Made by a program: the position numbers and the translations under genes
The notes under the pieces: model-generated
The model's input: only the letters and a program-made list of their open reading frames with translations
Told to the model about the DNA's origin: nothing
The model's database searches: none
Virus record (IMG/VR): IMGVR_UViG_3300018424_000006
Coordinates: 62,001-126,000 of that record
Length of the DNA: 64,000 nt
Source of the DNA: a virus
Reading direction: 5' to 3' (one strand)
Shown here: piece after piece, positions 11,083 through 58,175 of the stretch
Layout of the letters: each line of letters opens with the position of its first letter
Numbering within the stretch: the stretch's first letter is position 1

Positions 11083-11113
11083 GTAATATAGATTTGAAAG
11101 GTTCTAGAGCGCG
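11083..11113 (-). promoter_or_regulatory. Bipartite early-type promoter P1
   Basis: On the minus strand: box CGCGCTCTAGA, 11-base spacer, CTATATTAC, then TTATATG. The core matches the TATATTAC early promoter reported for phiKZ. Box, spacing and core recur at seven other loci in this window. It drives the 11046 to 6839 gene run. Confidence 0.8.
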
Positions 11114-11166
11114 TCACTTTATAAAACTAGGATTTATCATATACCTTTCAAAAGGAGATTAAGATA

Positions 11167-11781
11167 ATGCCTGTAAAATTAAATAGCAAGCCTTACGCGC
11201 TTATCGGTAACCGTAAAGACGTACATCTAGCTTATAGTGAAGAGTTAATCCGAATCGGTTACTACCTATCTAGTGTAGGAGCTTTATTCAGATCCGGTGG
11301 TTCTGGTACGTCAGATAAAAGCGGCGAGGCTGGGGTAGTTCGCTACTACGAAGAAAACGAAAAAGAAGTAGACTATGAAGTATTCTTGCCATGGAAAAAC
11401 TTTGACGCTGCCACCCGACTAAGTCCACCAGAGGCATATAAAACACTAACAAAAGAAATGGAAGAATGGGCTGACGAAATTCTTATTGAAAACAAAGTTT
11501 GTACATTCATTAAGAATCTACCTAGCGGCATTGCTAATATGTTTCGAAGAAATGTCTGTCAGATAATGGGCTATGGACCCGGACAACAATATTCTAAGTT
11601 CGTAGTCTATTATGCAAAAGAAGGTTATCCCAAACGAACTATAAAAGGCGGCACACGTATCGCAGTCTATTTGGCTCGTAAACTAAAGATACCTACCTTT
11701 AATATTGCATTCGAGAAAGACAGAAAAGAATTCAGTCGCTTTACTGGTTATGAGTTCACTGTTCTTGACGGATCATTTTAA
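11167..11781 (+). CDS. SLOG/DprA-like Rossmann-fold protein (putative)
   Basis: 204 aa, ATG at 11167 behind AAAGGAGATT. The N-terminal region contains a strand, a helix and then 'RSGGSGTSD' (42-50). This resembles the phosphate-binding glycine loop of SLOG/LOG and DprA-like nucleotide-binding folds, in which 'SGGA.G.D' follows the first helix. Several phages carry such proteins with unknown ligand. No catalytic assignment is possible. It is isolated on the plus strand between two minus-strand clusters, and an early-type promoter (11873-11903) points against its 3' end, so antisense control is conceivable. Confidence 0.6.
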   Translation: MPVKLNSKPYALIGNRKDVHLAYSEELIRIGYYLSSVGALFRSGGSGTSDKSGEAGVVRYYEENEKEVDYEVFLPWKNFDAATRLSPPEAYKTLTKEMEEWADEILIENKVCTFIKNLPSGIANMFRRNVCQIMGYGPGQQYSKFVVYYAKEGYPKRTIKGGTRIAVYLARKLKIPTFNIAFEKDRKEFSRFTGYEFTVLDGSF

Positions 11782-11872
11782 ACAAAAAAATATCCCGGGA
11801 AAACAACCAGAAATATCTCTATGTATCAAAAAAATTAAATACATCGGATAGAGCATGTTTATGCTCATATAA

Positions 11873-11903
11873 GCAATATAGGATTGTATTTTTCTGGAGC
11901 ACG
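11873..11903 (-). promoter_or_regulatory. Orphan bipartite early-type promoter P2
   Basis: On the minus strand: CGTGCTCCAGA, 11-base spacer, CTATATTGC, then TTATATG. It matches the consensus except for one core base. No minus-strand gene follows; transcription would run antisense into 11167-11781. The first bases downstream form a perfect hairpin, GAGCAT AAAC ATGCTC. Confidence 0.65.
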
Positions 11904-11908
11904 TTAAT

Positions 11909-11942
11909 TACCCCTACCTGCCTTTTTAGGTGGGTAGGGGTA
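11909..11942. terminator. Hairpin between SLOG-like gene and minus cluster
   Basis: 10-bp stem TACCCCTACC / GGTAGGGGTA. T-tracts are poor on both sides, so it may be a weak terminator or a spacer hairpin. In the 11782-12068 gap I otherwise see only the orphan promoter, the strong terminator next door and a short 7-bp helix at 12001-12052. Confidence 0.5.
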
Positions 11943-11958
11943 TTATGCTGCAAAAAAA

Positions 11959-11995
11959 AGAGGACCTGTCGCAATGGGGGTGCGACAGGTCCTCT
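11959..11995 (-). terminator. Strong intrinsic terminator
   Basis: Perfect 15-bp stem (arm AGAGGACCTGTCGCA) with a 7-base loop, followed on the minus strand by a run of T. It ends the minus-strand transcript from the 12069-14388 genes before it can enter the orphan-promoter region. Confidence 0.9.
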
Positions 11996-12068
11996 AAAAA
12001 TGCCAAGGCTAGAACGGGTGCTCCAGTCCGCTATTACTACCTAGTCCCTGGCTTCCTCAACGGTCGGT

Positions 12069-12638
12069 TTACTGCATGTAATATCCTGCAGTGAATTCTT
12101 TCTCTACGTCTTTAAACTTACTCGTTCCAAAGCGTACACCTAGGATGTTGTCATAGTACCATGTATTACCTTTCTGATACTGACTGTCGCCCGGTTTAAA
12201 TTTATTACCGTCAACCTCAATTACAAATCCATTGTCCATATAGGTACGGACACGAACACTGAATTCAGATAACATTACTTTACCCGAGATTCTAATGTCG
12301 AAGCTATGGATACGTGTAAACGGACGAATGGAATTAATTACATAACTGGCAATAGCAGCTACATCCGAGTTAAAATCTAATCTTTTCGTTATCCCTTCAT
12401 ACGCTAAAGCATATCCGGGAGTACCTGCGTCTACTTTAACGGAGGTAGCAATTGACTTAAAGCTTTTCTCTGAAAGCTTGATGACAATCTTCTCGTCATT
12501 TGCTGTACATATTTTAAAGGACCCGTCTTCCTTAGTGCCGGCTAGACGAGCCCTTATAATTTCTTTCCCAAGTTTATCGAATAGTGCCACCCGATATCCA
12601 TTAAGAAGGGCAGTAGTGTATAACTTCTTATTAAACAT
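12069..12638 (-). CDS. Hypothetical protein, 189 aa
   Basis: The start is set at ATG 12638 (AAGGAAAAG upstream). The longer in-frame reading from 12713 would overlap the hydrolase gene and begins with an Arg/Trp-rich stretch typical of spurious extension. The protein is beta-rich with basic patches. No motif is recognised. Confidence 0.75.
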   Translation of the reverse strand: MFNKKLYTTALLNGYRVALFDKLGKEIIRARLAGTKEDGSFKICTANDEKIVIKLSEKSFKSIATSVKVDAGTPGYALAYEGITKRLDFNSDVAAIASYVINSIRPFTRIHSFDIRISGKVMLSEFSVRVRTYMDNGFVIEVDGNKFKPGDSQYQKGNTWYYDNILGVRFGTSKFKDVEKEFTAGYYMQ

Positions 12639-12699
12639 TTTACTTTTCCTTAAAGCTTCCTTTCTTAAAAATCGACGGCAGAAAGACCAATGCCAAACC

Positions 12700-13224
12700 C
12701 TAAGGCTTGGCATCAGTTTTATCTTTCAATGCAATTCTCGATGCGTCCCAACAAGTAGTTTTGCCGTTAGGTTCGTATGCCCATGTATGGTTACCATGAA
12801 CTTCGAAACGGTCAAAACTATCTTTCCAGCAGGGTCTTGCTATCTTTTTGTGTGCCCAATAGTGGGTAGAGGCATCATCCAAACTAAAGTCATTACTTAG
12901 CACTCTTATAGAGATAGCTAAGATCTGCTTATAGATTTCTGCATCTTCCACTTTCCGTAGAACAACTGAGTTTGGAAGGTGATCATTGGTCCAGCTAAAT
13001 GCTCCGGGTTTCCAGATAACACTACATACTGTATCTGGATATGAAGAATCATAGAGACGCTTCATGACTGTAGTACCAACTTTAATCTGACCAACCAGAT
13101 CTTCACCTTGCGCTTCAAACCATATGTTCTGGGCCATACAAGTAACGTTTCTTTTGTTGACTAATTCGCCGGGCTCAAATGTTGTATTGAGCGCCATAGC
13201 CAATAAGTATTCCGCTAAACCCAT
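12700..13224 (-). CDS. SleB-like cell-wall hydrolase
   Basis: 174 aa from ATG 13224 (GAGGGAAAG upstream; an in-frame TTG further upstream is less likely). From about residue 26 the sequence 'MAQNIWFEAQGED..GQIKVGTTVMKR' followed by 'YPDTVCSVIW..GAFSW' matches the Hydrolase_2/SleB family, whose conserved Glu in 'FEA' is catalytic in peptidoglycan lytic transglycosylases. A short hydrophobic N-terminus could be a signal or anchor. The window also holds an M15 endolysin, so this second enzyme may act during entry, as a virion component, or on another bond. Assignment is by motif. Confidence 0.75.
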   Translation of the reverse strand: MGLAEYLLAMALNTTFEPGELVNKRNVTCMAQNIWFEAQGEDLVGQIKVGTTVMKRLYDSSYPDTVCSVIWKPGAFSWTNDHLPNSVVLRKVEDAEIYKQILAISIRVLSNDFSLDDASTHYWAHKKIARPCWKDSFDRFEVHGNHTWAYEPNGKTTCWDASRIALKDKTDAKP

Positions 13225-13318
13225 AATTTTGCTTTCCCTCGCCAAGGCTAGAAGTTCTAACCCTAACTCTTATTTAAACATTAATTAGGAATTATAGATT
13301 CCTATTAAACAATAAGAG

Positions 13319-13645
13319 TTATTCGTTAATTGCTACATAGTCAGCTAGCTCATTGTGACGAGCAGCTAGACGTTGGCGTTGTTCATCACTTAGAAAGTCT
13401 AAGCTGAAGTCTTCAACGATACTAGGTTGTAGAATTAGACATTTAAAAATTTGCTGAGAAGATAAAGTTGTGGTATCTATCTTCTTGGAAAGTTCAGGGC
13501 TCTGGATGATAAGATAAGTCTTATCTGTGTTATTCAACAAAGATAGATCTACGCTATCTGCTAGGTATGGTTGGAAAGCTAAAATGTTACGCACTTCAGA
13601 GGAAGTGGTTGGAGTAACGAAGCTTGCTTTTCTTAATGCGTTCAT
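13319..13645 (-). CDS. Small helical-repeat protein, 108 aa
   Basis: ATG at 13645. The protein appears built of three ~30-residue units of the form 'L..QP.l...vdlslL....k..Li..sP', each ending with a Pro. The same unit type recurs in the 358-aa protein at 30304-31380 ('LI.kdPsi...lp.d.L'). Such repeats would make a small alpha-solenoid, perhaps a protein-protein interaction surface. Function unknown. Confidence 0.65.
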   Translation of the reverse strand: MNALRKASFVTPTTSSEVRNILAFQPYLADSVDLSLLNNTDKTYLIIQSPELSKKIDTTTLSSQQIFKCLILQPSIVEDFSLDFLSDEQRQRLAARHNELADYVAINE

Positions 13646-13695
13646 GACTTAAAGTCCTCTATTTTAAAAGTGAGTTAATAACAACAAAATGCAAA

Positions 13696-13729
13696 CATAC
13701 ATACGGCATATGGCATAAAGCCATGTATG
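13696..13729. other. Hairpin in 13646-13791 intergenic region
   Basis: CATACAT / ATGTATG stem with inner GGC / GCC pairing. On the minus strand it includes TTTATGCC-like bases similar to the terminator tails elsewhere. It may be an RNA-processing or 5'-UTR element of the 13645 gene. Confidence 0.4.
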
Positions 13730-13761
13730 AAATATGAATGCATTCTGTTTATTATACTATA

Positions 13762-13793
13762 AGGTAAGAGAATATTTTTTTATTCTCTTACCT
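13762..13793. terminator. Terminator overlapping stop of the 198-aa gene
   Basis: Perfect 13-bp AT-rich stem AGGTAAGAGAATA / TATTCTCTTACCT with a T6 loop. It overlaps the TAG stop of the gene ending at 13792. Confidence 0.75.
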
Positions 13794-14388
13794 AGAGACA
13801 CTCGAGTATCTCGATATTTTTAGGGGCCTCTCGACCGTTAGGGTAAGTCACCTTATTCTTTTTCAAGCTAGGTGTAATGTGTAGCGAGTCCATTCCTTCC
13901 CGTCTACTCTTTGTTAGCAGTAGATTGATATAGTCCGGAAGATACTTCTTAAAGCTGCGGATTTTTCTTAAAGTACAAAGTACTACTTTGTAGCGGTCCT
14001 TACCGGAACCCTTTGTAAAATAAGTCACCGGAATTAATCGATCATCACCTTCTAGGTTAAACATAAAGTTTACCTGAGCATTGGTATTATGATCTTTTAA
14101 TTGGGTCAGCTTTTTAATTCCGTCTTCAGGAATCTGGACGTCCTCGTTGTTTGTGTTAAGAGTGCCGTTCTTAGCCCAAACAGTGCAAACTGCAAAGTCG
14201 TCACTGAAATACGTTAATGCCGGAGAAACCAGCACGTTCGTTTTTCTAAACTTAGTAGGTCGGTGTATATCCACTTCTGGAGTGGAGCTAAACGTCACTA
14301 TTAAGGATGGGCTCTTGTAAGCATAGGCTTCCCAATTGACCCTGACATTCTTTACAGTTAGTCCCTCTTCTGTAGTTATAGTTTCCAT
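13792..14388 (-). CDS. Early-type hypothetical protein, 198 aa
   Basis: The start is chosen at ATG 14388, with AAAGGA just upstream. An in-frame ATG at 14415 exists but lies inside the TTTAATG portion of the early promoter repeat (14420-14450) and so is probably part of the promoter, not a start. Beta-rich, basic, no recognised motif. Promoter, single gene and overlapping terminator make it a complete monocistronic early-type unit. Confidence 0.75.
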   Translation of the reverse strand: METITTEEGLTVKNVRVNWEAYAYKSPSLIVTFSSTPEVDIHRPTKFRKTNVLVSPALTYFSDDFAVCTVWAKNGTLNTNNEDVQIPEDGIKKLTQLKDHNTNAQVNFMFNLEGDDRLIPVTYFTKGSGKDRYKVVLCTLRKIRSFKKYLPDYINLLLTKSRREGMDSLHITPSLKKNKVTYPNGREAPKNIEILECL

Positions 14389-14419
14389 AGTCCTTTGATA
14401 TGGTTGGTAGTTCATTAAA

Positions 14420-14450
14420 ATAATATAGATTCATAGTAACCTAGAACACG
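14420..14450 (-). promoter_or_regulatory. Bipartite early-type promoter P3
   Basis: On the minus strand: CGTGTTCTAGG, 11-base spacer, CTATATTAT, then TTTAATG. It lies ~32 bases before the 14388 start and directly after the terminator of the portal gene. Confidence 0.75.
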
Positions 14451-14455
14451 GCATA

Positions 14456-14489
14456 AAGACTACTATCGACCGAAGCCGATAGTAGTCTT
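14456..14489 (-). terminator. Terminator after portal gene
   Basis: 13-bp stem AAGACTACTATCG / CGATAGTAGTCTT, 8-base loop. On the minus strand it is followed by TATGCCG and then immediately by early promoter P3. Confidence 0.85.
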
Positions 14490-14497
14490 ATAATTAA

Positions 14498-16906
14498 TTA
14501 AAACTCGCCAAAGTCATCACTAGAATCGCCTAGGTCGTCAGTGGATTCTTCACTGAAACCAGAGTCGTTATCCTCACCTTCTGCTCCGGGGTCATCAGAA
14601 CCACCTTCTTCAGAAGTGTCGTCTAAGTTGTCGTCTTCAGCTGGAACGTCATCATCGGAAGAGAACTCATCTTCCTCTCCTTCTGCTCCGCCCTGCTCCT
14701 CTTCTTTCTTAGCCAAACGCTCTTCTTCATCTGCGTCTAACTTATCTTGAAGATCTTCAGTTTTGTTGTCTTGTTTAATATCGACTTTCTTAATATCACG
14801 ATAAGTATCGCCAATAAGCCCTGCCATCATTTCAACATGAGCCTTAATCTTATCTTTAATGCCGCCATTACCTTCAGCAGAAAGTAACTGATCAAGTTCA
14901 GGTAAGATATTTTGGCTACGCATCCAGTCACGGACTAGGGTACTGATCATCATCTCGCGGAAGTTTTCGATGCCGGTAGGCACTGTATCGCCTTCAAACA
15001 TATCGGAAAGCATTTCGTCAGTAAGATAGTTATCAACTGCTATTTCAGCAAACTCACGGAATTTCTGCAGAGCCTCAGAATGTGCCTCAATCTTGGTCGT
15101 ATCTGGTTCAGGGAAAGATACTTCGATACCCAGTAAGATATCTTCCATAGATACTTTCTTTTTACCTATTTCATAAAGATCTTTAAGAAGCTTACCAGAC
15201 CATCGTACATACTTACGTACGTGTTCGGTTGACTGACTACCCAAAATCTTCTGATAGATACGAATACGACGAGCAAGTAGCTTGTTTGACGTTACGATGC
15301 CTGTGGCGAAATCGCCTTGGTACATCTGGTCAACTACTTCAGGAGGCATTCCCATGCCGTGATACTGAGTCTTCTTAAGCTGCTCTTCCATCTGGTCATC
15401 AGGACGAACTCGATCTCGACTATTGTCTTCAATCTCAGCTTTAGTAGACGGAAACGCAGTACCGCCATCAACATTAACCTGAATACCAGAATGCTGTAGG
15501 TTTCTAATCATGTCCGTTGGTTCATGATAGTCCCCTAGAGGTAAACCGTCGTTCTGCATCTTAGAGAATTCAGAAACGATCATGTGAACAGCTTTAACCG
15601 GATCTTGTTCGTCTTCATCTAACGTGATGTTTAGATTAGTACGACCCACCGCATTCTTAACTGAAGAAATCAAGTTAGAGAAAAGCACGGCTGAGCGCAT
15701 AGAAGAATATAGCTTAGTTCTTTCTAGAAGAGATTCACCAATACCTTCTGGAGTATAACTGAAAGCAAAATAAGTAATCAGTTCTTTATCCACATAAAGC
15801 AGCTTGGTTTTCTTATGGGACAGTGCACGCCAGAACATGACGTTATACACTTCTTCAGAATCGGCTACTTCAACATTGCCGCCCACAAGACCATCTTTCA
15901 ATGCTTCTTCTAAGTGGGTATTGATATGCTTATGATAAAGATTAGTTAGTTCCTTAGCACTACTTACTGTATTGCCACCCAAACCAAGTTCTTGAATGAT
16001 CTTGTTTAGATGATTATCATTAGAAGCTGAAAGAGTCTTAAGCTTCTCTGTATGATCGCCATCTGTCACCCTAGATACTGGATAACCGTTCTCGTCGAGA
16101 AGTATATAGAAAGCTAACTGCTTACGAGGGTTACTTGGCTCATGAATAGGGATAACACAATCAAACGGTATGCGCTTAACTAAAGGAGCTTCGCTGGCAT
16201 CGCTAGCATCAATTGGACGGATACTCAGAATGTTTTTATTCTGGTCTCCGTACATATTCTCTAGACCGGCATGTAAAATAGAAGCATTACTTAATGCCTT
16301 ACTTCTTAATTCAGGAGCCGCTAATAACTCTAGGTTATCAGTTACTTCGATGCCTAGTTTATTCGCTTTGCATTTAACAAACGAAGGTGGCTTACTATTC
16401 ATAACCTGAATCTGTCTAGTGAAGCTTTCCAAACCTGCCGTAGCATTAACAGAGCCGGTTACATTTTCAACAATAGGACGAGGAAGGATAAGGGAAGTAT
16501 AACTACCATAATCAAACAGAGCCTCGCGAATAATAGTCGGAATCTCTTCAGAAATATTATAAACTTCGGTGAAGTGCTCATTAAGCTTAGTGGCAATATC
16601 TGCAGCTACTTGCTCGTCTACGTCATCAAGACTTACTTTAATCTCGATATCAGTATCCGTAAAGTCTTTAGGGTTACAGATACTAGACACTAGAATCTCT
16701 TCAACTAATGCAAGGTCAGGAAGTATCTCTTTAATACTCTTGGCTTCTGAACCTTTACGACTTAGTTTATTAAACGTGTCTTCTAAAGAAGCGGTATTAA
16801 CTGTCTTCTTTTTCTTTTTATCTTCAACAATAATCTTTCTCGGAACAGTCGCCTTCTTAATAAGTGCGCTTTCCGTATTACTGCTGATCTTGGATACTTT
16901 TGTCAT
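14498..16906 (-). CDS. Probable portal protein
   Basis: 802 aa, ATG at 16906 behind GAGG. The central part (~370-640) has features usual in large-phage portals: a long helical stem region, a conserved-looking 'GMGMPPEVVDQMYQGDFATG' segment, then 'NKLLARRIRIYQKIL'. The C-terminal ~100 residues are extremely acidic and low complexity, likely disordered. Size and position, separated from the capsid gene by the RNA-polymerase-half cluster, fit the phiKZ order of capsid, RNAP subunit and portal (recalled from the literature). In the virion it would form the dodecameric DNA gate. Assignment by pattern, not by alignment. Confidence 0.65.
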   Translation of the reverse strand: MTKVSKISSNTESALIKKATVPRKIIVEDKKKKKTVNTASLEDTFNKLSRKGSEAKSIKEILPDLALVEEILVSSICNPKDFTDTDIEIKVSLDDVDEQVAADIATKLNEHFTEVYNISEEIPTIIREALFDYGSYTSLILPRPIVENVTGSVNATAGLESFTRQIQVMNSKPPSFVKCKANKLGIEVTDNLELLAAPELRSKALSNASILHAGLENMYGDQNKNILSIRPIDASDASEAPLVKRIPFDCVIPIHEPSNPRKQLAFYILLDENGYPVSRVTDGDHTEKLKTLSASNDNHLNKIIQELGLGGNTVSSAKELTNLYHKHINTHLEEALKDGLVGGNVEVADSEEVYNVMFWRALSHKKTKLLYVDKELITYFAFSYTPEGIGESLLERTKLYSSMRSAVLFSNLISSVKNAVGRTNLNITLDEDEQDPVKAVHMIVSEFSKMQNDGLPLGDYHEPTDMIRNLQHSGIQVNVDGGTAFPSTKAEIEDNSRDRVRPDDQMEEQLKKTQYHGMGMPPEVVDQMYQGDFATGIVTSNKLLARRIRIYQKILGSQSTEHVRKYVRWSGKLLKDLYEIGKKKVSMEDILLGIEVSFPEPDTTKIEAHSEALQKFREFAEIAVDNYLTDEMLSDMFEGDTVPTGIENFREMMISTLVRDWMRSQNILPELDQLLSAEGNGGIKDKIKAHVEMMAGLIGDTYRDIKKVDIKQDNKTEDLQDKLDADEEERLAKKEEEQGGAEGEEDEFSSDDDVPAEDDNLDDTSEEGGSDDPGAEGEDNDSGFSEESTDDLGDSSDDFGEF

Positions 16907-16908
16907 CT

Positions 16909-18330
16909 TTAAACCTCAGTGGGTATATAAATGTCGCGAAGGGCCGGGTGTCCCATATTCTTTAAGATCCCTAAAACATATACGGCAGAGTTACTGAAAC
17001 TCATAAATTCCAGATCCCAGTTATATTTTAATTCGCCTGTCTTGGCAAACGCCTTATTGACATTAAGAGTTCTTAACAAAAGATCAAGCGGACAATTAAG
17101 TAGCTGTGACCTTAAGTTATCTTTAAAATGGACCGGAAAACCTTTACGTGCTAGTCGGCTATCCTCTACTTCTAGGATGTCGATAGGATGGAAAGAATAT
17201 CTAAATAAAGCATGAAGTGAATCGTCGCTAATATCCGAGATATCAATTTTTAGATCGCTATAGAACTTCTTTATCTGAGCTGTCTTGATGCCATGACATT
17301 TGTGATTAATGCAAGCGTAATAGCCGCCAATTAACCTAAGGTCATGTTCACAAGAACTGCAGTGAGGCCTGGACTCTGTACCGGGATCTATGACATCTTT
17401 AATAATGAAGTTATCTTCTTTATCTTTGGCCATCATAACCATAGCCCCACGATTTAGTTTCTTTTCGGTCAAGAGAAGAGTGTCATCTAACTTAATTGTA
17501 AATCGCTTACGTGGAGACGAAACAGAATATATCTCAACTCCTGCAATCCCTTTATGGTTAGGTGTGAATGTGAGGTCTGTAAAATTTACCCGAATGCCTT
17601 CCGATTCGGCATTAATAAGATTCCATTCAAACGGATTCTTTCTGCCCACTGGAAGATTTTGATCAAAAAGATATGCTTCGCGACATTCTCTAAAATCTTC
17701 GGCAAAGTTTAAATCAAATAGTCTATCGGCATTAGAAGAATACGGTTGTAGATCAGACCCTCTAAGAATAGTCTCAGGAATCATTCTAAAACCTAGCTTC
17801 TTTAAATAGACTCTTTGGGTCTTGTAGTCGGAACTAATGGTTTCTGGATCAAATTTAAAAGTCCCATAAATGAAGATATCGATTAACTTAGCATGATCCT
17901 TATCTTTAACCAAGTAGTATGGGACCTTACTATAAATACTCTTCTCACCAGAATGTCTTATCGTAGCAACTCCTCTCAATTCCATACTAGCAAAGCTAGT
18001 AAGTTTCTTCGGAATTAAATTTGCTTCTACTAAATAGGAAGTAATATCTTCTCCAGAACAGCCATCGCCAAAAGTAATTGCGCTAACTAAAGTTCCGCTA
18101 GCGTATTTAGCCGTAAATTCGATTCCTAATGGCCGAGGAATAATGACATAGGACTTATTTAGATCTATATCTTTACAAAACTCTTTCATTGGCTCCTTTG
18201 TTGTAAGGATTGGACCAAAATGAAAGTTGTGTCTGATTTTCTGTGTTATTAATCTACTGTTTTCCAGTGACTTCAGAGGGAATTTGAACTCGTTCTTTTC
18301 CTCTTTCGTTAGCTGCGAAAATATATGCAT
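16909..18330 (-). CDS. NAD-dependent DNA ligase-like protein lacking catalytic residues
   Basis: 473 aa, ATG at 18330, AGGAG six bases upstream. 'YASGTLVSAITFGDGCSGEDIT' (76-97) lines up with LigA 'YENG.LV.AATRGDG.TGEDIT', followed by 'MELRG' (116-120, LigA 'LEVRGE') and a zinc site Cys324-x2-Cys327-x12-Cys340-x4-Cys345. But the nucleotidyl lysine of K-x-D-G is Arg66 and its Asp is Leu68. The Arg of 'TRGDG' is Phe87, the Glu of 'VRGE' is Val121, and 'DGVVIK' reads 'EGIRVN'. BRCT is absent. It therefore looks like a ligase fold that cannot be adenylated, possibly a DNA-binding or structural factor. The frame is intact and ends two bases before the portal start. Confidence 0.7.
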   Translation of the reverse strand: MHIFSQLTKEEKNEFKFPLKSLENSRLITQKIRHNFHFGPILTTKEPMKEFCKDIDLNKSYVIIPRPLGIEFTAKYASGTLVSAITFGDGCSGEDITSYLVEANLIPKKLTSFASMELRGVATIRHSGEKSIYSKVPYYLVKDKDHAKLIDIFIYGTFKFDPETISSDYKTQRVYLKKLGFRMIPETILRGSDLQPYSSNADRLFDLNFAEDFRECREAYLFDQNLPVGRKNPFEWNLINAESEGIRVNFTDLTFTPNHKGIAGVEIYSVSSPRKRFTIKLDDTLLLTEKKLNRGAMVMMAKDKEDNFIIKDVIDPGTESRPHCSSCEHDLRLIGGYYACINHKCHGIKTAQIKKFYSDLKIDISDISDDSLHALFRYSFHPIDILEVEDSRLARKGFPVHFKDNLRSQLLNCPLDLLLRTLNVNKAFAKTGELKYNWDLEFMSFSNSAVYVLGILKNMGHPALRDIYIPTEV

Positions 18331-18342
18331 GGGAGTCTCCTA

Positions 18343-20439: not shown

Positions 20440-20456
20440 AAACAAGGTTTATAAAA

Positions 20457-21290: not shown

Positions 21291-21301
21291 GGTAAGACTC
21301 T

Positions 21302-21856: not shown

Positions 21857-21864
21857 GTGTAGAA

Positions 21865-23957: not shown

Positions 23958-24434
23958 TTAATCGAACAAACGTAAAAGTTCGTCCGTATATGCTCGATGT
24001 AGGGCCACATCTTCATCTGCTGTTTCGACACCACTTATACCATGGCGTACTGCAACATATAGATCCGCATAGTTTTCAACTAAAGCCTTATAATCCGTAA
24101 CGTTACTCTCTCCCAGAGCATTGTTCTTAGTCATAGTGACCGTATTAAGGATTAGTCGAAGTGCTTCTTTCATCAGGTCCGGTGAGCAGAACCTGTCGTT
24201 CATGTATTGTTGTTCAGTTAGGATAGCAGCCAACGTTACCAAACTATCTACACGCCCAGAAGCGATTCGTACTCGGGCTTTGAAAACATGGTTAACCTGA
24301 CGTGGGTCAGTTTCGCGCATTTTTGCAATTGCCGAGTAATCGTCAAAGATTCTGCTCGTAGCGTCTCTTAACTCATACAAGTTAGGATCGTCGTCCAAGA
24401 CAGCCAGAATCTTCTCCTGTAGTTCACTTTTCAT
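23958..24434 (-). CDS. Early-type hypothetical protein, 158 aa
   Basis: ATG at 24434. Acidic, helical, no recognised motif. It is the first gene downstream of early promoter P4 (24521-24551); the ~87-base leader holds a 7-bp hairpin at 24486-24504. Confidence 0.75.
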   Translation of the reverse strand: MKSELQEKILAVLDDDPNLYELRDATSRIFDDYSAIAKMRETDPRQVNHVFKARVRIASGRVDSLVTLAAILTEQQYMNDRFCSPDLMKEALRLILNTVTMTKNNALGESNVTDYKALVENYADLYVAVRHGISGVETADEDVALHRAYTDELLRLFD

Positions 24435-24520: not shown

Positions 24521-24551
24521 GTAATATAGAATTATTTTATCCTTCAGCACG
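24521..24551 (-). promoter_or_regulatory. Bipartite early-type promoter P4
   Basis: On the minus strand: CGTGCTGAAGG, 11-base spacer, CTATATTAC, then TTTAATG. The transcript would begin shortly before a hairpin ACGATAT / ATATCGT (24486-24504). The rest of the 24552-24666 gap shows nothing I can name. Confidence 0.8.
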
Positions 24552-24700: not shown

Positions 24701-24703
24701 ACT

Positions 24704-29026: not shown

Positions 29027-30208
29027 TTAAAATGCAAAGCCAAACATACGACCGAAGAATCCTCCAATCGCTCCAAAGAAGTCAGCTACTTTTCCAAGGA
29101 AACCTGTGGAGTCTTTTGCTTTACTCCAACGGGCATCTCGAGCGGCCTTTTCTTTTTCTGCTTTATGTAGACTCTTCAGTTCTTCAAGTTCTTTTTCAAG
29201 CTTGACCTTTTCTTTAGCCTGCTCTTCTTTAAACTCTTCAAATTTCTGTTCTAACTTTGCCTTTTCTACCTTGAGGAACTGTTCGTTCTTCTTGATTTGA
29301 TCCTTGGTATATTGAGTTTCTGGTTTACGGTTATCGATCTTGGCTTCTTGCTCAGTTTCGTATAAACGTATTCCGCCTTTACCTTCACCTTCCAATAAGT
29401 CTGTAATACTGCAGACTATTTCTTTTTCATTTGTATCTAGAAAATATTTGTATCTGATACGTACTTCTTCATTTGGTAGGGTGGAGTCTGTGTTTACTTT
29501 AATCTTTCTAGTGCTATCCAAGAAGGGCAGATAGAGAGAAGTAAAGCGACGATCATTCGAAGAGATTGTTATCTCAAGTCCGAATGCTTCTAGAGGATCT
29601 CGGTTCTCATATTCCTCAGCATAAAAGTGAGGCGTTTCTTCAGCTAGCTCTTTGTCTAGGAAGAACATGAAATGACATCCGCTAAAGCGAAAGCCTCTGT
29701 CATGATTAAGAACATTCTCTAGAGTTGTTGTTTTTGAAATGAAGTTTCGAGTGCCGTTTAACTTACGCTCGTTATGAGTATATGGACAATAGTCAGTATG
29801 ATGGCTTTTATCGTTCTGAGGATAAACTCCAACGCTATAGAATTCTCGTACAGCTAAATCGTATTCATCTCTAGGATTAATACTAATGCTACCGTTTTCT
29901 ATAATAGACTTGGTCATCATTTTCTCTGGATCATAATACTCCAGAACAGTTAGGACCTTCGCTACATTCTTATCATTCCGAGAATGGATTTCCATGATTC
30001 TACCATTTGGATGCTTGGCATAAATAGTTGAACCTAGGTTGTTTTCAATTACACATGCAGTATCTAAAAACTTCAATTGCATGTCGCCCCAAGGACCACT
30101 CGCAGCTGAAGGTTTAGTTAATGTATGAAATTGCTGAGGAGTATTGCAGTCTCGTATATCTTCTAATATACGACCGCTGATTTCCTCATGGCCTGCAGTA
30201 GTTAACAT
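29027..30208 (-). CDS. Coiled-coil protein with amphipathic C-terminus, 393 aa
   Basis: Start set at ATG 30208 (GGAG eight bases upstream); ATG 30214 is possible but too close to the site. The first ~280 residues are beta-rich with many Asn/Asp. A ~65-residue Lys/Glu coiled coil (~290-355) follows, and the protein ends with 'GKVADFFGAIGGFFGRMFGF', a Gly/Phe amphipathic helix that could insert in membranes. It stands directly behind early promoter P5, so it is likely an early protein, possibly acting at the membrane or at a phage-made compartment. Family unknown. Confidence 0.75.
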   Translation of the reverse strand: MLTTAGHEEISGRILEDIRDCNTPQQFHTLTKPSAASGPWGDMQLKFLDTACVIENNLGSTIYAKHPNGRIMEIHSRNDKNVAKVLTVLEYYDPEKMMTKSIIENGSISINPRDEYDLAVREFYSVGVYPQNDKSHHTDYCPYTHNERKLNGTRNFISKTTTLENVLNHDRGFRFSGCHFMFFLDKELAEETPHFYAEEYENRDPLEAFGLEITISSNDRRFTSLYLPFLDSTRKIKVNTDSTLPNEEVRIRYKYFLDTNEKEIVCSITDLLEGEGKGGIRLYETEQEAKIDNRKPETQYTKDQIKKNEQFLKVEKAKLEQKFEEFKEEQAKEKVKLEKELEELKSLHKAEKEKAARDARWSKAKDSTGFLGKVADFFGAIGGFFGRMFGFAF

Positions 30209-30255
30209 AGCCATTGCTCCTTTATTTCTAATAATTATTGTTTCTAGTCATTAAG

Positions 30256-30286
30256 GTAATATAGAATTTCAAATATCTGGAGAACG
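30256..30286 (-). promoter_or_regulatory. Bipartite early-type promoter P5
   Basis: On the minus strand: CGTTCTCCAGA, 11-base spacer, CTATATTAC, then CTTAATG. It lies ~48 bases before the 30208 start and immediately after the terminator of the repeat-protein gene. Confidence 0.8.
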
Positions 30287-36546: not shown

Positions 36547-37122
36547 TTACGGTGCGTTATTTGCATATACGCTTAGAGGAGGCATTCCCATTTCTTTTAG
36601 ATCGTCAATGGCTTCTTCTAGATTCTCTTGATCTTCACTGTAATCTTTTTCTAAAATAAAGCTAACTAGCATTCTAAATGCTAACTGCATAGCTTCCATT
36701 GCTGTTTGTTCCCTAGTGAATATTTCTTCAAGAAACTGAATCTTGGAATCCGTCACTGCATTCTGGGGATGCACTGCCGCACAATAAGCTGAACCATAGC
36801 ACTCATCTAGCTGGAGAAATATCTCCATAGTCTCTTCTTCTGAAGTGGCTAAATCTAAGAGTTCCATTAAACGACTTGCTGGTCCAATTAAAGTAGATAT
36901 CAGTACTATGACACGGTCTGCATTACGCGCAATTCGTAGCATGTTCGATACCTCAGTCGTAACGTCATCCGCCGATATTAGCCCTTTCCCTATACGAGGA
37001 TCTTTGGTCTGTAGCTTTTCTATTAAACGCACTAACTCACGTAATGAATCCATGTAAGTCAGTGCAGCCTGAGTTCTCTGAGTTAGCAGAGCCAACTCTT
37101 TTACCTTAGCTGAAAAATCCAC
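36547..37122 (-). CDS. Hypothetical helical protein, 191 aa
   Basis: ATG at 37122, overlapping the upstream membrane gene by 17 bases, with AAGGAGAAAAC as ribosome site. Acidic and helical throughout; the C-terminus ends in Pro-rich 'MPPLSVYANNAP'. No motif. It is the second gene behind early promoter P6. Confidence 0.75.
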   Translation of the reverse strand: MDFSAKVKELALLTQRTQAALTYMDSLRELVRLIEKLQTKDPRIGKGLISADDVTTEVSNMLRIARNADRVIVLISTLIGPASRLMELLDLATSEEETMEIFLQLDECYGSAYCAAVHPQNAVTDSKIQFLEEIFTREQTAMEAMQLAFRMLVSFILEKDYSEDQENLEEAIDDLKEMGMPPLSVYANNAP

Positions 37123-37534
37123 CTGTTTTCTCCTTAAGAATTAATAGAATATCCTCTGTCATAAATGAGACCAGAAGTATAAAGATTGCTAGTATTAGAA
37201 AAACATCAATTGTAATAATCAACGAGGCACTGTATCTAAACAGTGGAAGGGAAGCTGCAATAACAACCAAAAGTCCTACGCCAATATAAACTAGATAAAA
37301 GTTTGCGTACTGGCCATTAATATAATATGCCGCTAACCATACTGCCAAAATCCACAAGGTACGCACCGTAGTTCTCAGCCTCAACTCCCTCATCTTAATT
37401 CTTCGCATTATCCTTTTGACTTCTTTGGGGTTATTATTACCTCCTACTCCTATCTCCATTAGCTTCTTACCTACAAGTAAATTGTAGACAAAAATATTCA
37501 ATAAAATAACTGCAAGTAGTAGTACGTATTTCAT
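37106..37534 (-). CDS. Early-type multi-TM membrane protein, 142 aa
   Basis: ATG at 37534, ~37 bases after promoter P6. Hydrophobic segments at about 2-20, 58-75, 78-98 and 105-128, with a basic loop at ~35-57. Likely inner membrane. Family unknown. An early membrane protein could alter host envelope or exclude other phages, but nothing in the sequence shows it. Confidence 0.75.
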   Translation of the reverse strand: MKYVLLLAVILLNIFVYNLLVGKKLMEIGVGGNNNPKEVKRIMRRIKMRELRLRTTVRTLWILAVWLAAYYINGQYANFYLVYIGVGLLVVIAASLPLFRYSASLIITIDVFLILAIFILLVSFMTEDILLILKEKTGGFFS

Positions 37535-37570: not shown

Positions 37571-37601
37571 GTAATATAGAATCGTACTAGCCTTAGACAC
37601 G
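37571..37601 (-). promoter_or_regulatory. Bipartite early-type promoter P6
   Basis: On the minus strand: CGTGTCTAAGG, 11-base spacer, CTATATTAC, then TAATG. It serves the 37534 to 36547 pair. Confidence 0.8.
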
Positions 37602-38854: not shown

Positions 38855-39055
38855 CTAAGATAAGAAGGCTAGCATACGGCCTATTGTACCACCCGGGTTG
38901 GCAGGACTAATAAGCATTGCCTTACCTAAGCCTTTAGTTGGGTTAAAGTCCCCAACCTTCTTAGGTTCTTTCTTTTCTTCTTTGCCTTCGGCTTTCTTTT
39001 TAACCACACGACCTTTAGGTTCTTTTACTGGAGCGCCTGTTGTATTTAAAGACAT
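38855..39055 (-). CDS. Small Lys-rich early-type protein, 66 aa
   Basis: Start set at ATG 39055 (AAAAGGAAAATAA upstream); the in-frame ATG at 39097 lacks a site. Residues ~12-40 are Lys/Glu-rich and probably disordered or nucleic-acid binding; the C-terminus is hydrophobic and Gly/Pro-rich. It is the only gene behind promoter P7, so a dedicated early product. Confidence 0.7.
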   Translation of the reverse strand: MSLNTTGAPVKEPKGRVVKKKAEGKEEKKEPKKVGDFNPTKGLGKAMLISPANPGGTIGRMLAFLS

Positions 39056-39111: not shown

Positions 39112-39142
39112 GTAATATAGCCTTATACTAATCTAGAACACG
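39112..39142 (-). promoter_or_regulatory. Bipartite early-type promoter P7
   Basis: On the minus strand: CGTGTTCTAGA, 11-base spacer, CTATATTAC, then TTTAATG; the clearest copy. It follows a terminator directly and precedes a 57-base leader with a weak ATTGA / TCAAT hairpin. Confidence 0.85.
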
Positions 39143-39148
39143 GCATAA

Positions 39149-39175
39149 AGGCACTACTCCAATGGAGTAGTGCCT
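39149..39175 (-). terminator. Terminator after 451-aa structural gene
   Basis: 12-bp stem AGGCACTACTCC / GGAGTAGTGCCT with 3-base loop; on the minus strand followed by TTATGCCG and promoter P7. Confidence 0.9.
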
Positions 39176-39181
39176 ATTAAG

Positions 39182-46992: not shown

Positions 46993-47020
46993 ACACTGGG
47001 TCAAATATGTTCTAAAAAGA

Positions 47021-48432: not shown

Positions 48433-48474
48433 AACACAATTCCTTATATTGGTTTTATAAAGAGAACCGACCTA

Positions 48475-49518: not shown

Positions 49519-49545
49519 TTTTATTTCCCTTAAGGTAAAAACAAG

Positions 49546-50601: not shown

Positions 50602-50604
50602 ACT

Positions 50605-53463: not shown

Positions 53464-53466
53464 TTA

Positions 53467-53498
53467 CTATACTCCCAGACTGATGTCTGGGAGTATAG
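53467..53498 (+). terminator. Terminator after 952-aa gene
   Basis: Perfect 14-bp stem CTATACTCCCAGAC / GTCTGGGAGTATAG, then CTTTTTCTGC on the plus strand; also usable by the convergent minus-strand gene. Confidence 0.92.
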
Positions 53499-53511
53499 CT
53501 TTTTCTGCTTA

Positions 53512-54390
53512 CTAGAAATCTATCATTTCTAGAACTGGAGCACTATCGTTTTCCACTTCAGACTTGTCGTCTTTAGGGAAAGCGTCTTCGTCCAAAGTAT
53601 CAGGTGTCTGTTCTTCAACTTCGTCTTCTAAAGAACCAGATAGCATTGCGCTAATGAACGCCTTTTTAGTTTCTTCGGTGGTTACCAAACTATCTAGTAA
53701 GTAATCCATTAGGATTTCAAATACTACTTCAGAATGAATAAAGGTACGATTAACAGTTCCTTTTACGCCAGCTAAATAACGAGCTACTTGGTGTAAGATA
53801 GACGAAGAACCAGAAACTAACTTCATTACTTCTTCAATCTCATGGAACTCTAACTTATCCCAGTAGCCGGAATCTGCGTTTTCACGGATAGCTTCTTCAA
53901 ACTTCTCACGTAATTCATATTCAGAATTAGATGGGACGTCAGTAAGATTTACCGTCTTCTCAAATACTTGAATAATTGGATAGTAAAGAGAACGAAACTC
54001 TTCTAACGTCATTCCGTATAAAGACTCTTCTTTTGCATCCTTAATTCGATTATAGATCTTTTCTGCGAACGTCGGGATAAAGAAACCATTTAAGATTTCA
54101 TTTAACATTCGGTTGCGGACTACGGACACTTGACGAGATAGTTCGATTGTAGAATCTAAACTAAATGCAGCCTTACCTTTAATGGATAATAGCTGACGAC
54201 GAGTTTCAAAGCGACTATCTGTAGTCCAACGAGCAGAAAGATTGTTGTCTGACTCACGACCTAATAGACGGAAGTTACTGAAACTTAAATAGATAGCTAG
54301 CATCAAAGAGATACTAGAATAGCCACGGCCCGTTCCATAAGAACGAACAAGAGATGATGCACCAATTGCAGAGTTAATGTTCTTAAACAT
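53512..54390 (-). CDS. Hypothetical protein with acidic tail, 292 aa
   Basis: ATG at 54390 with AAGGAATTT. Helical; an N-terminal segment ~25-45 is hydrophobic. The last ~50 residues are highly acidic. No motif. It follows the HELGH metallopeptidase at 12 bases, so the two are probably co-expressed. Confidence 0.72.
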   Translation of the reverse strand: MFKNINSAIGASSLVRSYGTGRGYSSISLMLAIYLSFSNFRLLGRESDNNLSARWTTDSRFETRRQLLSIKGKAAFSLDSTIELSRQVSVVRNRMLNEILNGFFIPTFAEKIYNRIKDAKEESLYGMTLEEFRSLYYPIIQVFEKTVNLTDVPSNSEYELREKFEEAIRENADSGYWDKLEFHEIEEVMKLVSGSSSILHQVARYLAGVKGTVNRTFIHSEVVFEILMDYLLDSLVTTEETKKAFISAMLSGSLEDEVEEQTPDTLDEDAFPKDDKSEVENDSAPVLEMIDF

Positions 54391-54402
54391 TGTTAAAATT
54401 CC

Positions 54403-55626
54403 TTATGCTTCTAAACGAGCGGCAAGCTCATGTAAACGGTTGTTGCCAACTTTCTCAAGTTGCTTTTGAATCTGTGCAAGCTTTAGTTTCTTGCGGTTCC
54501 ATGGGGCCAGCTTCCAGATCACTCGACCTAGAGGTTCCCACTCCACGCTTTTCTCCCAAACCTTTTCAAGTTCATCGATATCGTCTAGGATACGCCTCAC
54601 TTCTTCTTTAGGTAGACCTTCATTCTTCAATGACTTAGACATCTGCTGACGAATAACGTTAGCGCGAGTTTTATGACTATCGTAAAGATCTTTGCCATCA
54701 TCAAAGATTAGAATTAAAGGAGCAGCCAATAAGTTTGCTGGGAGAAATAGAGTTACTTCTAGCACGTTAACGAACCAGCGTATGCCACGACTACGTTCTG
54801 GGGTATAATCTAGTAGTTTAGCCAGACCTGTACCTAATGCCTTACCATAGCCCATACGGATAGCAAAGTTATCTGCTAGAGCTTCGTAACCACGAGTATC
54901 ATAAATATTCTCGCCTAGAGAACTACGACACTCTTCATATTCGGCTTGAGCCACAAGCACTACGGCAGCTTCTTTACTTTCTACTTTGGCTACTTCTTCT
55001 GGATCTTTAATATTAAACCCAGCCTTACGGTAATCACGCAAGATCTTAACGCGCTCTTCAGAACTATTGATATTCAATACACGTTCTGTAAGGTCAGTAA
55101 GAAGATAGTTCGTTGTAGTATTGCGATACAACAATTCAAAATAACAGAAAATATGTCCTAACTCATGCAGGATAATGGCTGTGGTTTCAGCTAAAGTAAA
55201 TTCGCTATTACTTGTTAAGTGTGAAGTACCTACGCCAACCATACAAGTAATGTCACGGAAATCACCGGTAACGATACCTTTCTTAAGGTCTACTCCACCT
55301 TTAATGAAGTCTTTACGGTTAATCACCTCAATAGACTGACTGCTGTCCTGTAGCCATCCCGGGAAATGATTGATAAGCACATTGTTCTTGGTTAGCTTAG
55401 GAGGATAAACATAAGCATTGCCGCCAAAGGTAAGCTCAAAGTTTACTGAGATGCCTGTGATGGTTTTAATTGCGTCTACGATCCCATTAAGAGAGGAAGC
55501 TTTTATCTCTTTCTTAGAAGCTCGTATGATACGCAGCTCCTTCTCGATAGCGATACCTAACTTCTTATCTTTCTGGAAATCTATGGCTTCTAGACCGGCA
55601 CGTAACATGCCTGTGATCTCACTCAT
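54403..55626 (-). CDS. Zinc metallopeptidase (HELGH), 407 aa
   Basis: ATG at 55626 with GGAG. 'AIILHELGHIFCYFE' gives His154-Glu155-x2-His158, and a third ligand is likely Glu248 in 'YEALADNF' (E-x3-D as in gluzincins). A hydrophobic stretch follows at ~290-315, and a Lys/Glu helical tail ends the protein. The N-terminal ~140 residues may be a pro-domain or substrate-binding part. Possible targets are host envelope or virion proteins; none is shown. The head protease of phiKZ-type phages is of a different class, so this is not an obvious maturation enzyme. Confidence 0.75.
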   Translation of the reverse strand: MSEITGMLRAGLEAIDFQKDKKLGIAIEKELRIIRASKKEIKASSLNGIVDAIKTITGISVNFELTFGGNAYVYPPKLTKNNVLINHFPGWLQDSSQSIEVINRKDFIKGGVDLKKGIVTGDFRDITCMVGVGTSHLTSNSEFTLAETTAIILHELGHIFCYFELLYRNTTTNYLLTDLTERVLNINSSEERVKILRDYRKAGFNIKDPEEVAKVESKEAAVVLVAQAEYEECRSSLGENIYDTRGYEALADNFAIRMGYGKALGTGLAKLLDYTPERSRGIRWFVNVLEVTLFLPANLLAAPLILIFDDGKDLYDSHKTRANVIRQQMSKSLKNEGLPKEEVRRILDDIDELEKVWEKSVEWEPLGRVIWKLAPWNRKKLKLAQIQKQLEKVGNNRLHELAARLEA

Positions 55627-55689
55627 TTGTGACTCCGTAAAAATTTAAATAAGTTTCAGATTGTATATGAATTATTGGGAGAAATATTA

Positions 55690-57348
55690 ATGGAAACTCA
55701 ACGCAATTGTATTTGGGTAACCCATCATCGCTCTAAACATACTAAACAAGATGACTTGTTAGTCATTAAAGAACGAGTTAAAGAACCGAACAAAGAAGAA
55801 TACTCTAATGTTCGATACGTAAAGAATTTTAAACGACCATACTGGATAACTAAGAAAGCTCACCAAAGCACCCATGAGCAAAAGAAAGACTGGGAGCATA
55901 TGGGTAACCTAGACCGCTATGAATGCACGCAAGCTGAGCTAGCTACGCACTCTGCTAAAAATCTAGGTATGTATCTGCATAATGGTTTTGCAAAACAATC
56001 TGATGTTAACCGGTCTCCATACGTCTATGGTACAGACGTTACCTCTCCTGTTATCGTTAAGAACAGTTACAGAGATAAATGGCCAGATTATGCCCCTGCT
56101 GCCTCTGTAGCAGTACTCGATTACGAGACAGACGTTATTAACGATCCAGACGATAAGCGAGTGGTATCTGGAGCACTAACCTTTAGAAACAAATGTTACT
56201 TAGCAATCAGCCAGGACTTTGTTGGGACGTTACCAAATCCAGAAGAAAAGATTCGGGCTTGCATAGAAAAGCATCTATCTAAATATATCCATGATCGTGA
56301 TATAGAATTGTTCATTAAGATCGTTCCGGACTCAATGGCGGTTATTCGTTCTTGTATGAAAGCCGCCCATATGACTCAGCCAGACTACGTAGCAATATGG
56401 AACATGGTGTTCGATATTAACGTAATGATTGATGAATGTGAACGCTGCGGCATTGATCCTGCTGATATCTTCTGTGCTCCTGAAATCCCTAAAGAATTTA
56501 GAACCTTTAGATGGGTAGAGCAACCTAAGATCAAGCGTAAAGCTAATGGCGATACGATGAGTAAAGACCCATCGGAACTATGGCACCGCGTAGAAGCTCC
56601 TGCTAGTTTCTATTTCATAGATGCTATGTGTTTCTATCGAATCTCTCGAGTAATGCAAGGTAAGATTAACTCTTATTCTCTTGACGCCATTCTAGATCGT
56701 GAGTTGAAATTAGGTAAACTTCGTTTTGATGGCGCTAACGGTTTAACAGGCTTAGACTGGCACATTAAAATGCAGATGCAGTACAAACCTGAATATCTCG
56801 CATATAACTTATTTGACTGTATCTCAATGGAACTGTTGGATGAGAAGACTCAAGACTTATCTGTTGCCTTGGGTTCGTATGTGGGTATTAGTGAGTTGAA
56901 GTCTGTACCTAGTAACCCTAAGCGATTGGCGGATGCTTGTCACTTCTTCTTATTAGAACGCAATAAGGTTATCTGTAGTACGTCTGACGACATGACTCAA
57001 GAATTAGATAAACATCTACTTAGTCTTCGTAACTGGATCATTACACTAGCCTCTGAGCTTGTGGAAAATACTGGACGAAGTATTGTAGAAGGTATACCTG
57101 ATTCTGAAAGTCGTTTCTCTGGACACTGCGGAGATATCGATATTGCATCGGGTTATCCATCTGCCGGTACCGCTATGAATATATCTGGCGGCACTACTCT
57201 ATTTGAAGTAGTGGGCATTGAAGGTAAGTCTGAAGATACTCAGCGTCGTAATGGCGTAGACTTAAATGCTTGTAAGACTAACTGCGGTCAGTTAGGACGA
57301 GAGTTATTTGATCTACCTAGCTACACAGATGCCCTACAATATTTTTAA
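55690..57348 (+). CDS. Family-B DNA polymerase, exonuclease and start of palm only
   Basis: 552 aa from ATG 55690 (GGGAGAAA upstream; TTG 55675 in frame is less likely). Exo I is 'AVLDYETDV' (Asp144, Glu146), Exo II 'IWNMVFDIN' (Asn238, Asp242), Exo III 'YNLFD' (Tyr372, Asp376). 'DIASGYPS' (484-491) corresponds to polymerase motif A 'DxxSLYPS'. The chain ends about 60 residues later with no motif B or the DTD of motif C, and a strong terminator follows at once. A second gene must supply the rest of the palm and thumb if the enzyme is active. It provides proofreading and part of the polymerase for phage replication. Confidence 0.75.
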   Translation: METQRNCIWVTHHRSKHTKQDDLLVIKERVKEPNKEEYSNVRYVKNFKRPYWITKKAHQSTHEQKKDWEHMGNLDRYECTQAELATHSAKNLGMYLHNGFAKQSDVNRSPYVYGTDVTSPVIVKNSYRDKWPDYAPAASVAVLDYETDVINDPDDKRVVSGALTFRNKCYLAISQDFVGTLPNPEEKIRACIEKHLSKYIHDRDIELFIKIVPDSMAVIRSCMKAAHMTQPDYVAIWNMVFDINVMIDECERCGIDPADIFCAPEIPKEFRTFRWVEQPKIKRKANGDTMSKDPSELWHRVEAPASFYFIDAMCFYRISRVMQGKINSYSLDAILDRELKLGKLRFDGANGLTGLDWHIKMQMQYKPEYLAYNLFDCISMELLDEKTQDLSVALGSYVGISELKSVPSNPKRLADACHFFLLERNKVICSTSDDMTQELDKHLLSLRNWIITLASELVENTGRSIVEGIPDSESRFSGHCGDIDIASGYPSAGTAMNISGGTTLFEVVGIEGKSEDTQRRNGVDLNACKTNCGQLGRELFDLPSYTDALQYF

Positions 57349-57363
57349 ACAAAAAAAATAAAG

Positions 57364-57393
57364 ATACCCTACTAGCCTGAGCTAGTAGGGTAT
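57364..57393. terminator. Bidirectional terminator after polymerase gene
   Basis: 13-bp stem ATACCCTACTAGC / GCTAGTAGGGTAT with CTGA loop, identical in its core to the terminator at 6804-6833, flanked by AAAAAAAATAAAG and TCTTTTATGCC. Confidence 0.92.
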
Positions 57394-57397
57394 TCTT

Positions 57398-58081
57398 TTA
57401 TGCCTTTAGTGCAGCATCAAACTCCTTAAGGAACGGATCATCGGAAAATAACTTCTCTCCAATCTTTCGATTGTAAGCAATTATCCTTTCGACATCTCTA
57501 TCTGAAGGATCTCCTTTACGAGCAAGTTCTGCCTCATAGCGTAGATCATAATAAAACTTCTCTCTAGTCATACCGGAGCCACTGGATTCGACATAGTCGT
57601 ATTCAGCATTATAGGCCTCGATTTCATGGGGAGAAGAGAAATATTCTTCTAAGCTAGATTTTAGATTACCTTTGATATCGGCTACTTCCTTAATAGGTTT
57701 GCCTTTCCACAGTAATACCGAATCAGACTCACGGACTAAATCTCCACGCTGCATTTGTTTGATATGAGTAAGTTCATGTACAAACATGCGACGGACAAAG
57801 AAACGGGCACCGAAGGCACCGTACGCAAGAATGATCCTATCTAAAAACGTCATAGATATCTGTATAATGGGTTCGAAAACTCCTACGCTAAAGCTAGCGT
57901 AGCCAGCAACCGCAGACTCTTGTTTAGAAAGAATGCAGCCCACCGAGCGCTCTAGATCTTTAACTTGATCATTAAGCCACTCCAAACCAGTCAAAGCTAC
58001 TAAGACATCTGCTTCAGTAGTATTAATCGGTACCATATCATAAAGATCGTGGTGTAGCGTAATGTTCTTAAGTTCATTCAT
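57398..58081 (-). CDS. Early-type metallopeptidase-like protein (HELTH), 227 aa
   Basis: ATG at 58081 behind AGGAGAATAC. 'MFVHELTHIKQM' gives His102-Glu103-x2-His106, followed ~45 residues later by 'PHEIEAYNAE' (Glu153/Glu155), the pattern of small phage- and Zincin-type metallopeptidases. A hydrophobic region (~60-92) precedes the site. It stands alone behind early promoter P8, so it should be made soon after infection; an attack on a host protein is an attractive but unproven idea. Confidence 0.7.
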   Translation of the reverse strand: MNELKNITLHHDLYDMVPINTTEADVLVALTGLEWLNDQVKDLERSVGCILSKQESAVAGYASFSVGVFEPIIQISMTFLDRIILAYGAFGARFFVRRMFVHELTHIKQMQRGDLVRESDSVLLWKGKPIKEVADIKGNLKSSLEEYFSSPHEIEAYNAEYDYVESSGSGMTREKFYYDLRYEAELARKGDPSDRDVERIIAYNRKIGEKLFSDDPFLKEFDAALKA

Positions 58082-58144
58082 TATATTTGTATTCTCCTAG
58101 TTATAATGAAAAGGCTAAGAGATATATTCTCTTAACTCATATAA

Positions 58145-58175
58145 GTAATATAGTACTATTTAGGTCTAGAACACG
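58145..58175 (-). promoter_or_regulatory. Bipartite early-type promoter P8
   Basis: On the minus strand: CGTGTTCTAGA, 11-base spacer, CTATATTAC, then TTATATG. The 64-base leader contains a hairpin TAAGAGA / TCTCTTA. Confidence 0.85.

Follow-up and report, generated by a model that had tools for sequence, protein, structure and literature searches.

Putative virion RNA polymerase promoters with a rigidly spaced upstream box in a phiKZ-like virus

Promoter elements and genes at the locus

The DNA analyzed here, a stretch of 64,000 nucleotides referred to as the window, covers positions 62001-126000 of the 219,819-bp phiKZ-like virus record IMGVR_UViG_3300018424_000006 (G000:C1). It carries eight copies of a bipartite minus-strand element, composed of an 11-base box, a spacer of 11 bases and a core that reads CTATATTAC or a one-base variant of it. 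All eight were recovered where a previous sequence-only reading had placed them, the core variants being TATATTGC at 11873 and TATATTAT at 14420. Boxes and cores are listed below with the predicted transcription start and the next open reading frame (ORF).

11103-11113, minus strand: upstream box CGCGCTCTAGA
11083-11091, minus strand: core CTATATTAC; predicted start G 11076; before ORF 10792-11061
11893-11903, minus strand: upstream box CGTGCTCCAGA
11873-11881, minus strand: core CTATATTGC; predicted start G 11866; about 800 nt downstream free of called minus-strand genes
14440-14450, minus strand: upstream box CGTGTTCTAGG, immediately preceded by a hairpin with TTTATGCCG tail
14420-14428, minus strand: core CTATATTAT; predicted start G 14413; before ORF 13792-14298
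24541-24551, minus strand: upstream box CGTGCTGAAGG
24521-24529, minus strand: core CTATATTAC; predicted start G 24514; before ORF 23958-24434
30276-30286, minus strand: upstream box CGTTCTCCAGA, immediately preceded by a hairpin
30256-30264, minus strand: core CTATATTAC; predicted start G 30249; before ORF 29027-30214
37591-37601, minus strand: upstream box CGTGTCTAAGG
37571-37579, minus strand: core CTATATTAC; predicted start G 37564; before ORF 37106-37534
39132-39142, minus strand: upstream box CGTGTTCTAGA, immediately preceded by a hairpin with TTTATGCCG tail
39112-39120, minus strand: core CTATATTAC; predicted start G 39105; before ORF 38855-39055
58165-58175, minus strand: upstream box CGTGTTCTAGA, closely preceded by a hairpin with TTTATGCCG tail
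58145-58153, minus strand: core CTATATTAC; predicted start G 58138; before ORF 57398-58081

The core had been described as being followed by TTTAATG or TTATATG. This applies to six copies (TTATATG at 11083, 11873 and 58145; TTTAATG at 14420, 24521 and 39112), while CTTAATG was found at 30256 and TAATGCG at 37571. Seven of the eight copies do precede a minus-strand gene, at a distance of about 30-115 nt depending on the start codon chosen, rather than the 30-90 bases given before. A position right after a terminator, thought to be the usual one, is supported by an adjoining hairpin in five cases (11873, 14420, 30256, 39112, and 58145). The promoter at 11873-11881 is the only one without a gene on the same strand soon downstream and would read antisense into the plus-strand ORF 11167-11781.

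A genome-wide set of 23 promoters

A weight matrix seeded only on CTATATT[AG][CT] retrieved 23 sites from the whole genome, eight of them in the window, with scores of 34.7-58.3; the next best candidate scored 0.9. All 23 are intergenic and located on the minus strand, and 22 precede a minus-strand gene. The core is AT-rich and of the -10 type, reading TATATTAC in 18, TATATTAT in three, and TATATTGC and TATATCAT in one case each. Counting from the C of CTATATTAC as index 0, an A at -14 is present in 23/23 sites and a G at -13 in 20/23. A G at index +15, six bases past the core, is invariant.

With the sites picked by the core alone, the box holds 10.6 bits of information, compared to 1.08 +/- 0.26 bits in random intergenic sequence. 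Since only the core determined the choice of sites, the box is not an artefact of selection. As it had first been noticed in the window, it was tested on sites outside. A box matrix derived from the eight window sites recognised 12 of the 15 sites beyond the window at p<0.01 (Fisher p 1.75e-26), and the same matrix at five wrong offsets gave p values of 0.03-0.90. In a leave-one-out analysis the 11-base spacing was optimal for the box in 22/23 promoters. Moreover, every genomic occurrence of the words CGTGTTCTAGA (5/5) and GTGTTCTAG (6/6) falls at one of these promoters.

Conservation of the box could in principle be a by-product of terminator tails ending in TGCCG, of AT-rich composition, or of recent duplication of a promoter cassette, and at several window sites a TTTATGCCG tail indeed abuts the box. 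Tail-less sites should then have lost it, but those at 11083, 24521 and 37571, among others, have kept it. The box also contains G+C, and the flanks further upstream, at index -44 to -34, carry 1.6 bits (null 1.07 +/- 0.28), which is near the null and unlike duplicated cassettes. We therefore regard this explanation as very improbable.

Source genome and its gene content

The genome encodes homologues of both multisubunit RNA polymerases of phiKZ, as is characteristic of genomes with phiKZ-type early promoters. Iterated profile searches with phiKZ proteins, from which gp123 was left out, identified gp178, gp180, gp80, gp149 and gp176 of the virion RNA polymerase (vRNAP) as well as gp55, gp68, gp71-73 and gp74 of the non-virion RNA polymerase (nvRNAP) and the shell protein chimallin. 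PHROGs annotation likewise yielded a nuclear shell protein, PhuZ tubulin and an RNA polymerase subunit. The best match of the major head protein is that of Vibrio phage Yong (37.9%). The source is a phiKZ-like jumbo phage that is probably nucleus-forming. One of the vRNAP genes is located inside the window, and its product is part of the presumed reader of the promoters:

61963-63216, minus strand: homologue of phiKZ gp80, virion RNA polymerase subunit (2.3e-153 in the profile search; 2.7e-112 to the PHROG 'RNA polymerase beta subunit')

The vRNAP beta gene, homologous to gp178 and located outside the window (G000:C1:189541-194999), consists of two ORFs with an ORF resembling phiKZ gp179 between them. 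The gene is split at about the same place in several relatives, possibly by an intron with a homing endonuclease.

Close relatives by which the lineage-specific part of the box might be dated were not found in IMG/VR by a search with the major capsid protein as the only query, nor among GTDB genomes. The vRNAP search yielded two fragments of 100% identity, and the next nearest relatives share 43-45% vRNAP identity. Searching IMG/VR with the bipartite pattern gave six single matches, which may be due to chance.

Hairpins followed by TTTATGYCG instead of a T run are located, for example, at 14450-14490 and 39142-39180. Hairpins of at least 6 bp just upstream of this word were found for 10/14 occurrences in the genome studied here, 20/22 in phiPA3, 20/26 in Proteus phage 10, 19/29 in Eowyn, 18/27 in 201phi2-1, and 6/7 in phiKZ, versus 0-2 in reversed-word controls. 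This combination may serve the phage polymerases as a terminator.

Transcription start and downstream genes

Early promoters of AR9 have the form AAATATATATTAT-(6N)-G(+1), and transcription in phiKZ and phiR1-37 starts 6 nt past the respective elements (PMC5312081). The invariant G six bases past the core coincides with this spacing and is the likely transcription start in the present phage. With the start placed there, the core spans -15 to -7, and the box, noted before as lying about two helical turns from the core, covers -37 to -27, a -35-type position. Start-site spacing and early timing are taken here from published work on relatives.

The genes behind the promoters include gp68 and PhuZ as well as chimallin with gp55 after it and gp71-73 with gp74 after them, which is the early set to be expected. 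The phages compared lack homologues of the other first genes, among them all those of the window, and the ones scanned against Pfam gave no match. The gp68 promoter with its upstream element is found in front of the orthologous gene in Yong, pir03, sm033, phiKZ, phiPA3, Proteus phage 10, and 201phi2-1. Polymerase and chimallin genes, early genes downstream, and start-G spacing together bear out the sequence-only reading of the core as a phiKZ-type early promoter.

Host promoters of the sigma70 type have some resemblance to these sites, as TATATT agrees with TATAAT in 5/6 positions and the box begins where a -35 hexamer at 17-base spacing would be located. However, at this spacing, the only one scored, the hexamer is CGTGTT and shares 0/6 positions with TTGACA. 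Furthermore, core and start spacing are of the early type of phiKZ and AR9, which is reported to be independent of the host RNA polymerase (PMC7598289, PMC5312081). Recognition by host sigma70 is accordingly hardly credible.

The upstream element across related phages

For comparison, most or all of the genome of each of 13 other phages was used, with sites recruited by the core and downstream bases only and random intergenic sequence as the null. Information in the box region exceeded the null in 13/13 phages (z 6-33). The values were 8.9 bits in Eowyn, 8.3 in phiKZ (z 33), 6.5 in 201phi2-1, 6.3 in both sm033 and Goslar, 5.5 in both phiPA3 and OBP, 5.4 in pir03, 4.4 in Yong, 3.8 in Proteus phage 10, 2.8 in AR9 (z=14), 2.6 in EL, and 1.7 in SPN3US, whose 45 sites on both strands may include false ones. 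The phage studied here has the highest value of the 14 (10.9 bits). Stricter site sets agreed where enough sites were available; in those of 6-8 sites, box information did not exceed the null maximum in EL and Proteus phage 10. Among the 40 sites recruited in AR9 were all eight early promoters annotated in its first 45 kb.

The letters most often shared across the phages are T at index -17 and A at index -14, equivalent to -32 and -29 from the predicted start. Metagenomic relatives share the arrangement, one of those with 43-45% vRNAP identity (G002) having boxes of the TCAAG, TCTAA or TCGAG type at the same offset. In AR9 (L239-L251), at least seven early promoters begin upstream with ACCGTATTAAAA or a near variant, similar to the CCGTGTT junction found here.

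The assumption that the box had not been described thus holds only in part. An element locked to the same offset occurs in phiKZ, phiPA3, 201phi2-1, OBP, Goslar, Eowyn, Proteus phage 10, and three Vibrio phages, and in weaker form in EL, SPN3US and AR9. The long consensuses of 201phi2-1, OBP and N1M2 in Table 2 of PMC7058600 extend into the box positions, and the 201phi2-1 logo computed here agrees with the published consensus. The core and, within these three consensuses, conserved bases at box positions were already known. New are the CGTG extension specific to this lineage, the reading of the element as -35-like throughout the family, and the division of the promoters into two subtypes. According to a 2020 review, a vRNAP promoter is an element of about 10 bases near -10 (PMC7598289). 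It is partly right that the upstream half is missing from published descriptions: it is absent from the reviews' account of the signal, and the primary phiKZ transcriptome paper could mention upstream conservation.

Promoter subtypes

Clustering of the region from index -22 to -1 separated two classes of early promoters, in which box and spacer covary, beyond what was seen in column-shuffled sets (z of -15 in phiKZ, -16 in 201phi2-1, -18 in phiPA3, and -6 in the phage studied here). In the latter a strong box pairs with a weak spacer (rho -0.71). Such compensation was missing or reversed in the other phages compared and was therefore rejected as a family rule. Promoters of widely conserved first genes (such as chimallin, gp68, gp71-73 and PhuZ) all fall into one class, 10/52 versus 0/48 when pooled over four phages that are not independent; within single phages, Fisher p values were 0.06-0.5. 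A link between promoter subtype and conservation of the first gene is suggestive only.

Proposed mechanism and candidate readers of the box

We propose that the multisubunit RNA polymerase packaged in the virion reads the 23 early promoters once the DNA enters the cell. Transcription would begin at the invariant G (+1), with CTATATTAC (-15 to -7) serving as -10-type melting element and the box (-37 to -27, consensus CGTGTTCTAGA) as -35-type element. The spacing would be fixed because one polymerase-bound protein surface contacts the box within the same segment of duplex DNA. The box may represent the local version of a T(-32)/A(-29) element of phiKZ-related phages, to which CGTG at -37 to -34 was added in this lineage. 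We assign a probability of roughly 0.8 to this reading as a whole.

Fixed spacing, together with an equal offset in phages with different box letters, argues for a single rigid protein assembly as the contacting partner, and our best inference is that the box is contacted by the vRNAP itself or by a virion protein attached to it. Alternatively, the core could be the vRNAP promoter and the box the site of a separate factor tuning early genes, for instance a host protein, a virion protein that is injected, or an early-gene repressor acting later. The TCTAGA palindrome in many box copies, the lack of an identifiable sigma-like vRNAP subunit, and the differences of box and spacer between the subtypes would fit such a factor. 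Nevertheless, the rigid spacing in 22/23 promoters and the equal offset in 13 other phages whose boxes have other letters are easier to reconcile with a component of the polymerase complex, and the shared T-17 and A-14 are not palindromic in the other phages. A separate factor thus appears unlikely.

Several points weigh against recognition of the box by the polymerase. EL, SPN3US and AR9 have only a weak form of the element, which therefore may aid rather than be required. The promoters of this phage are predictions from its sequence. A 2021 survey found no sigma factor in nucleus-forming jumbo phages (PMC7824862), a profile search found no gp68 paralogue that could act as vRNAP specificity factor, and the homologue of phiKZ gp177 had no significant structural match; for these reasons contact between the vRNAP and the box stays inferred.

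The gp177 homologue was considered as box reader since in most relatives its gene is flanked by gp178 and gp176. Its AlphaFold2 model (predicted local distance difference test score 80) gave no Foldseek match at E<0.001 (template modeling (TM) score about 0.1). Because the homologous SPN3US gp243 is reported to be a head-assembly/ejection protein (PMC5694885), this candidate was rejected. A 941-residue model of gp178 matched AR9 beta-N (484 residues) with E 3.8e-12 and a target TM score of 0.55, and residues 828-916 aligned weakly with residues 387-476 of Thermus beta. By this count, roughly 360 N-terminal residues may extend beyond the nvRNAP beta-N fold, and a unique N-terminal region has been noted in phage beta proteins (PMC7824862). 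That this region reads the box is a guess. As a tentative generalization, it is possible that phiKZ-like vRNAPs combine a -10-type core with a sequence-specific -35-type box through an unrecognised domain, perhaps the gp178 N-terminus, and that variants of box and spacer define promoter subtypes assigned to different early genes.

A conserved -35-type element with rigid spacing across the group makes it likely that promoter choice by the virion polymerase of nucleus-forming jumbo phages involves a second sequence-reading surface. The element also provides exact bases to mutate, and the bipartite motif is a sharper tool for finding early genes when a jumbo phage is represented by sequence data alone.

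Comparison with known systems

The early promoters of phiKZ resemble those described here in the TATATTAC core, the start G six bases on, and the intergenic location mainly on one strand. They also precede chimallin and nvRNAP genes and have an upstream element, TATT.AAA, at the same offset. In contrast to the box CGTGTTCTAGA with its CGTG extension, the phiKZ box is nearly all A+T.

In the 201phi2-1 consensus, TTAWTAVAA_HYWTTTRARR_BTATATTAC, conserved bases from index -21 to -13 overlap our box, and the OBP and N1M2 consensuses share the equivalent of its A at index -14 (PMC7058600). There the three appear as one long motif with box letters unlike ours, and their tabulated form is not divided into a separate -35-type element.

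AR9 early promoters (AAATATATATTAT-6N-G) agree in core type and start spacing and have a weak A/T-rich element of other letters at the same offset, but AR9 has uracil DNA and is not nucleus-forming.

The late promoters of phiKZ and AR9 are read by the nvRNAP, a related multisubunit phage polymerase, and share TATG at the start with some of our sites. Most of our sites have AATG instead, together with a strong core and box, unlike phiKZ late promoters, which have TATG with G at +1 and lack further conserved elements. Moreover, nvRNAP promoters reportedly show no sequence conservation at -35 and the contact by the C-terminal domain of gp226 is sequence-independent (PMC9209446), so that the nvRNAP is no model for the reading of the strong box found in this phage.

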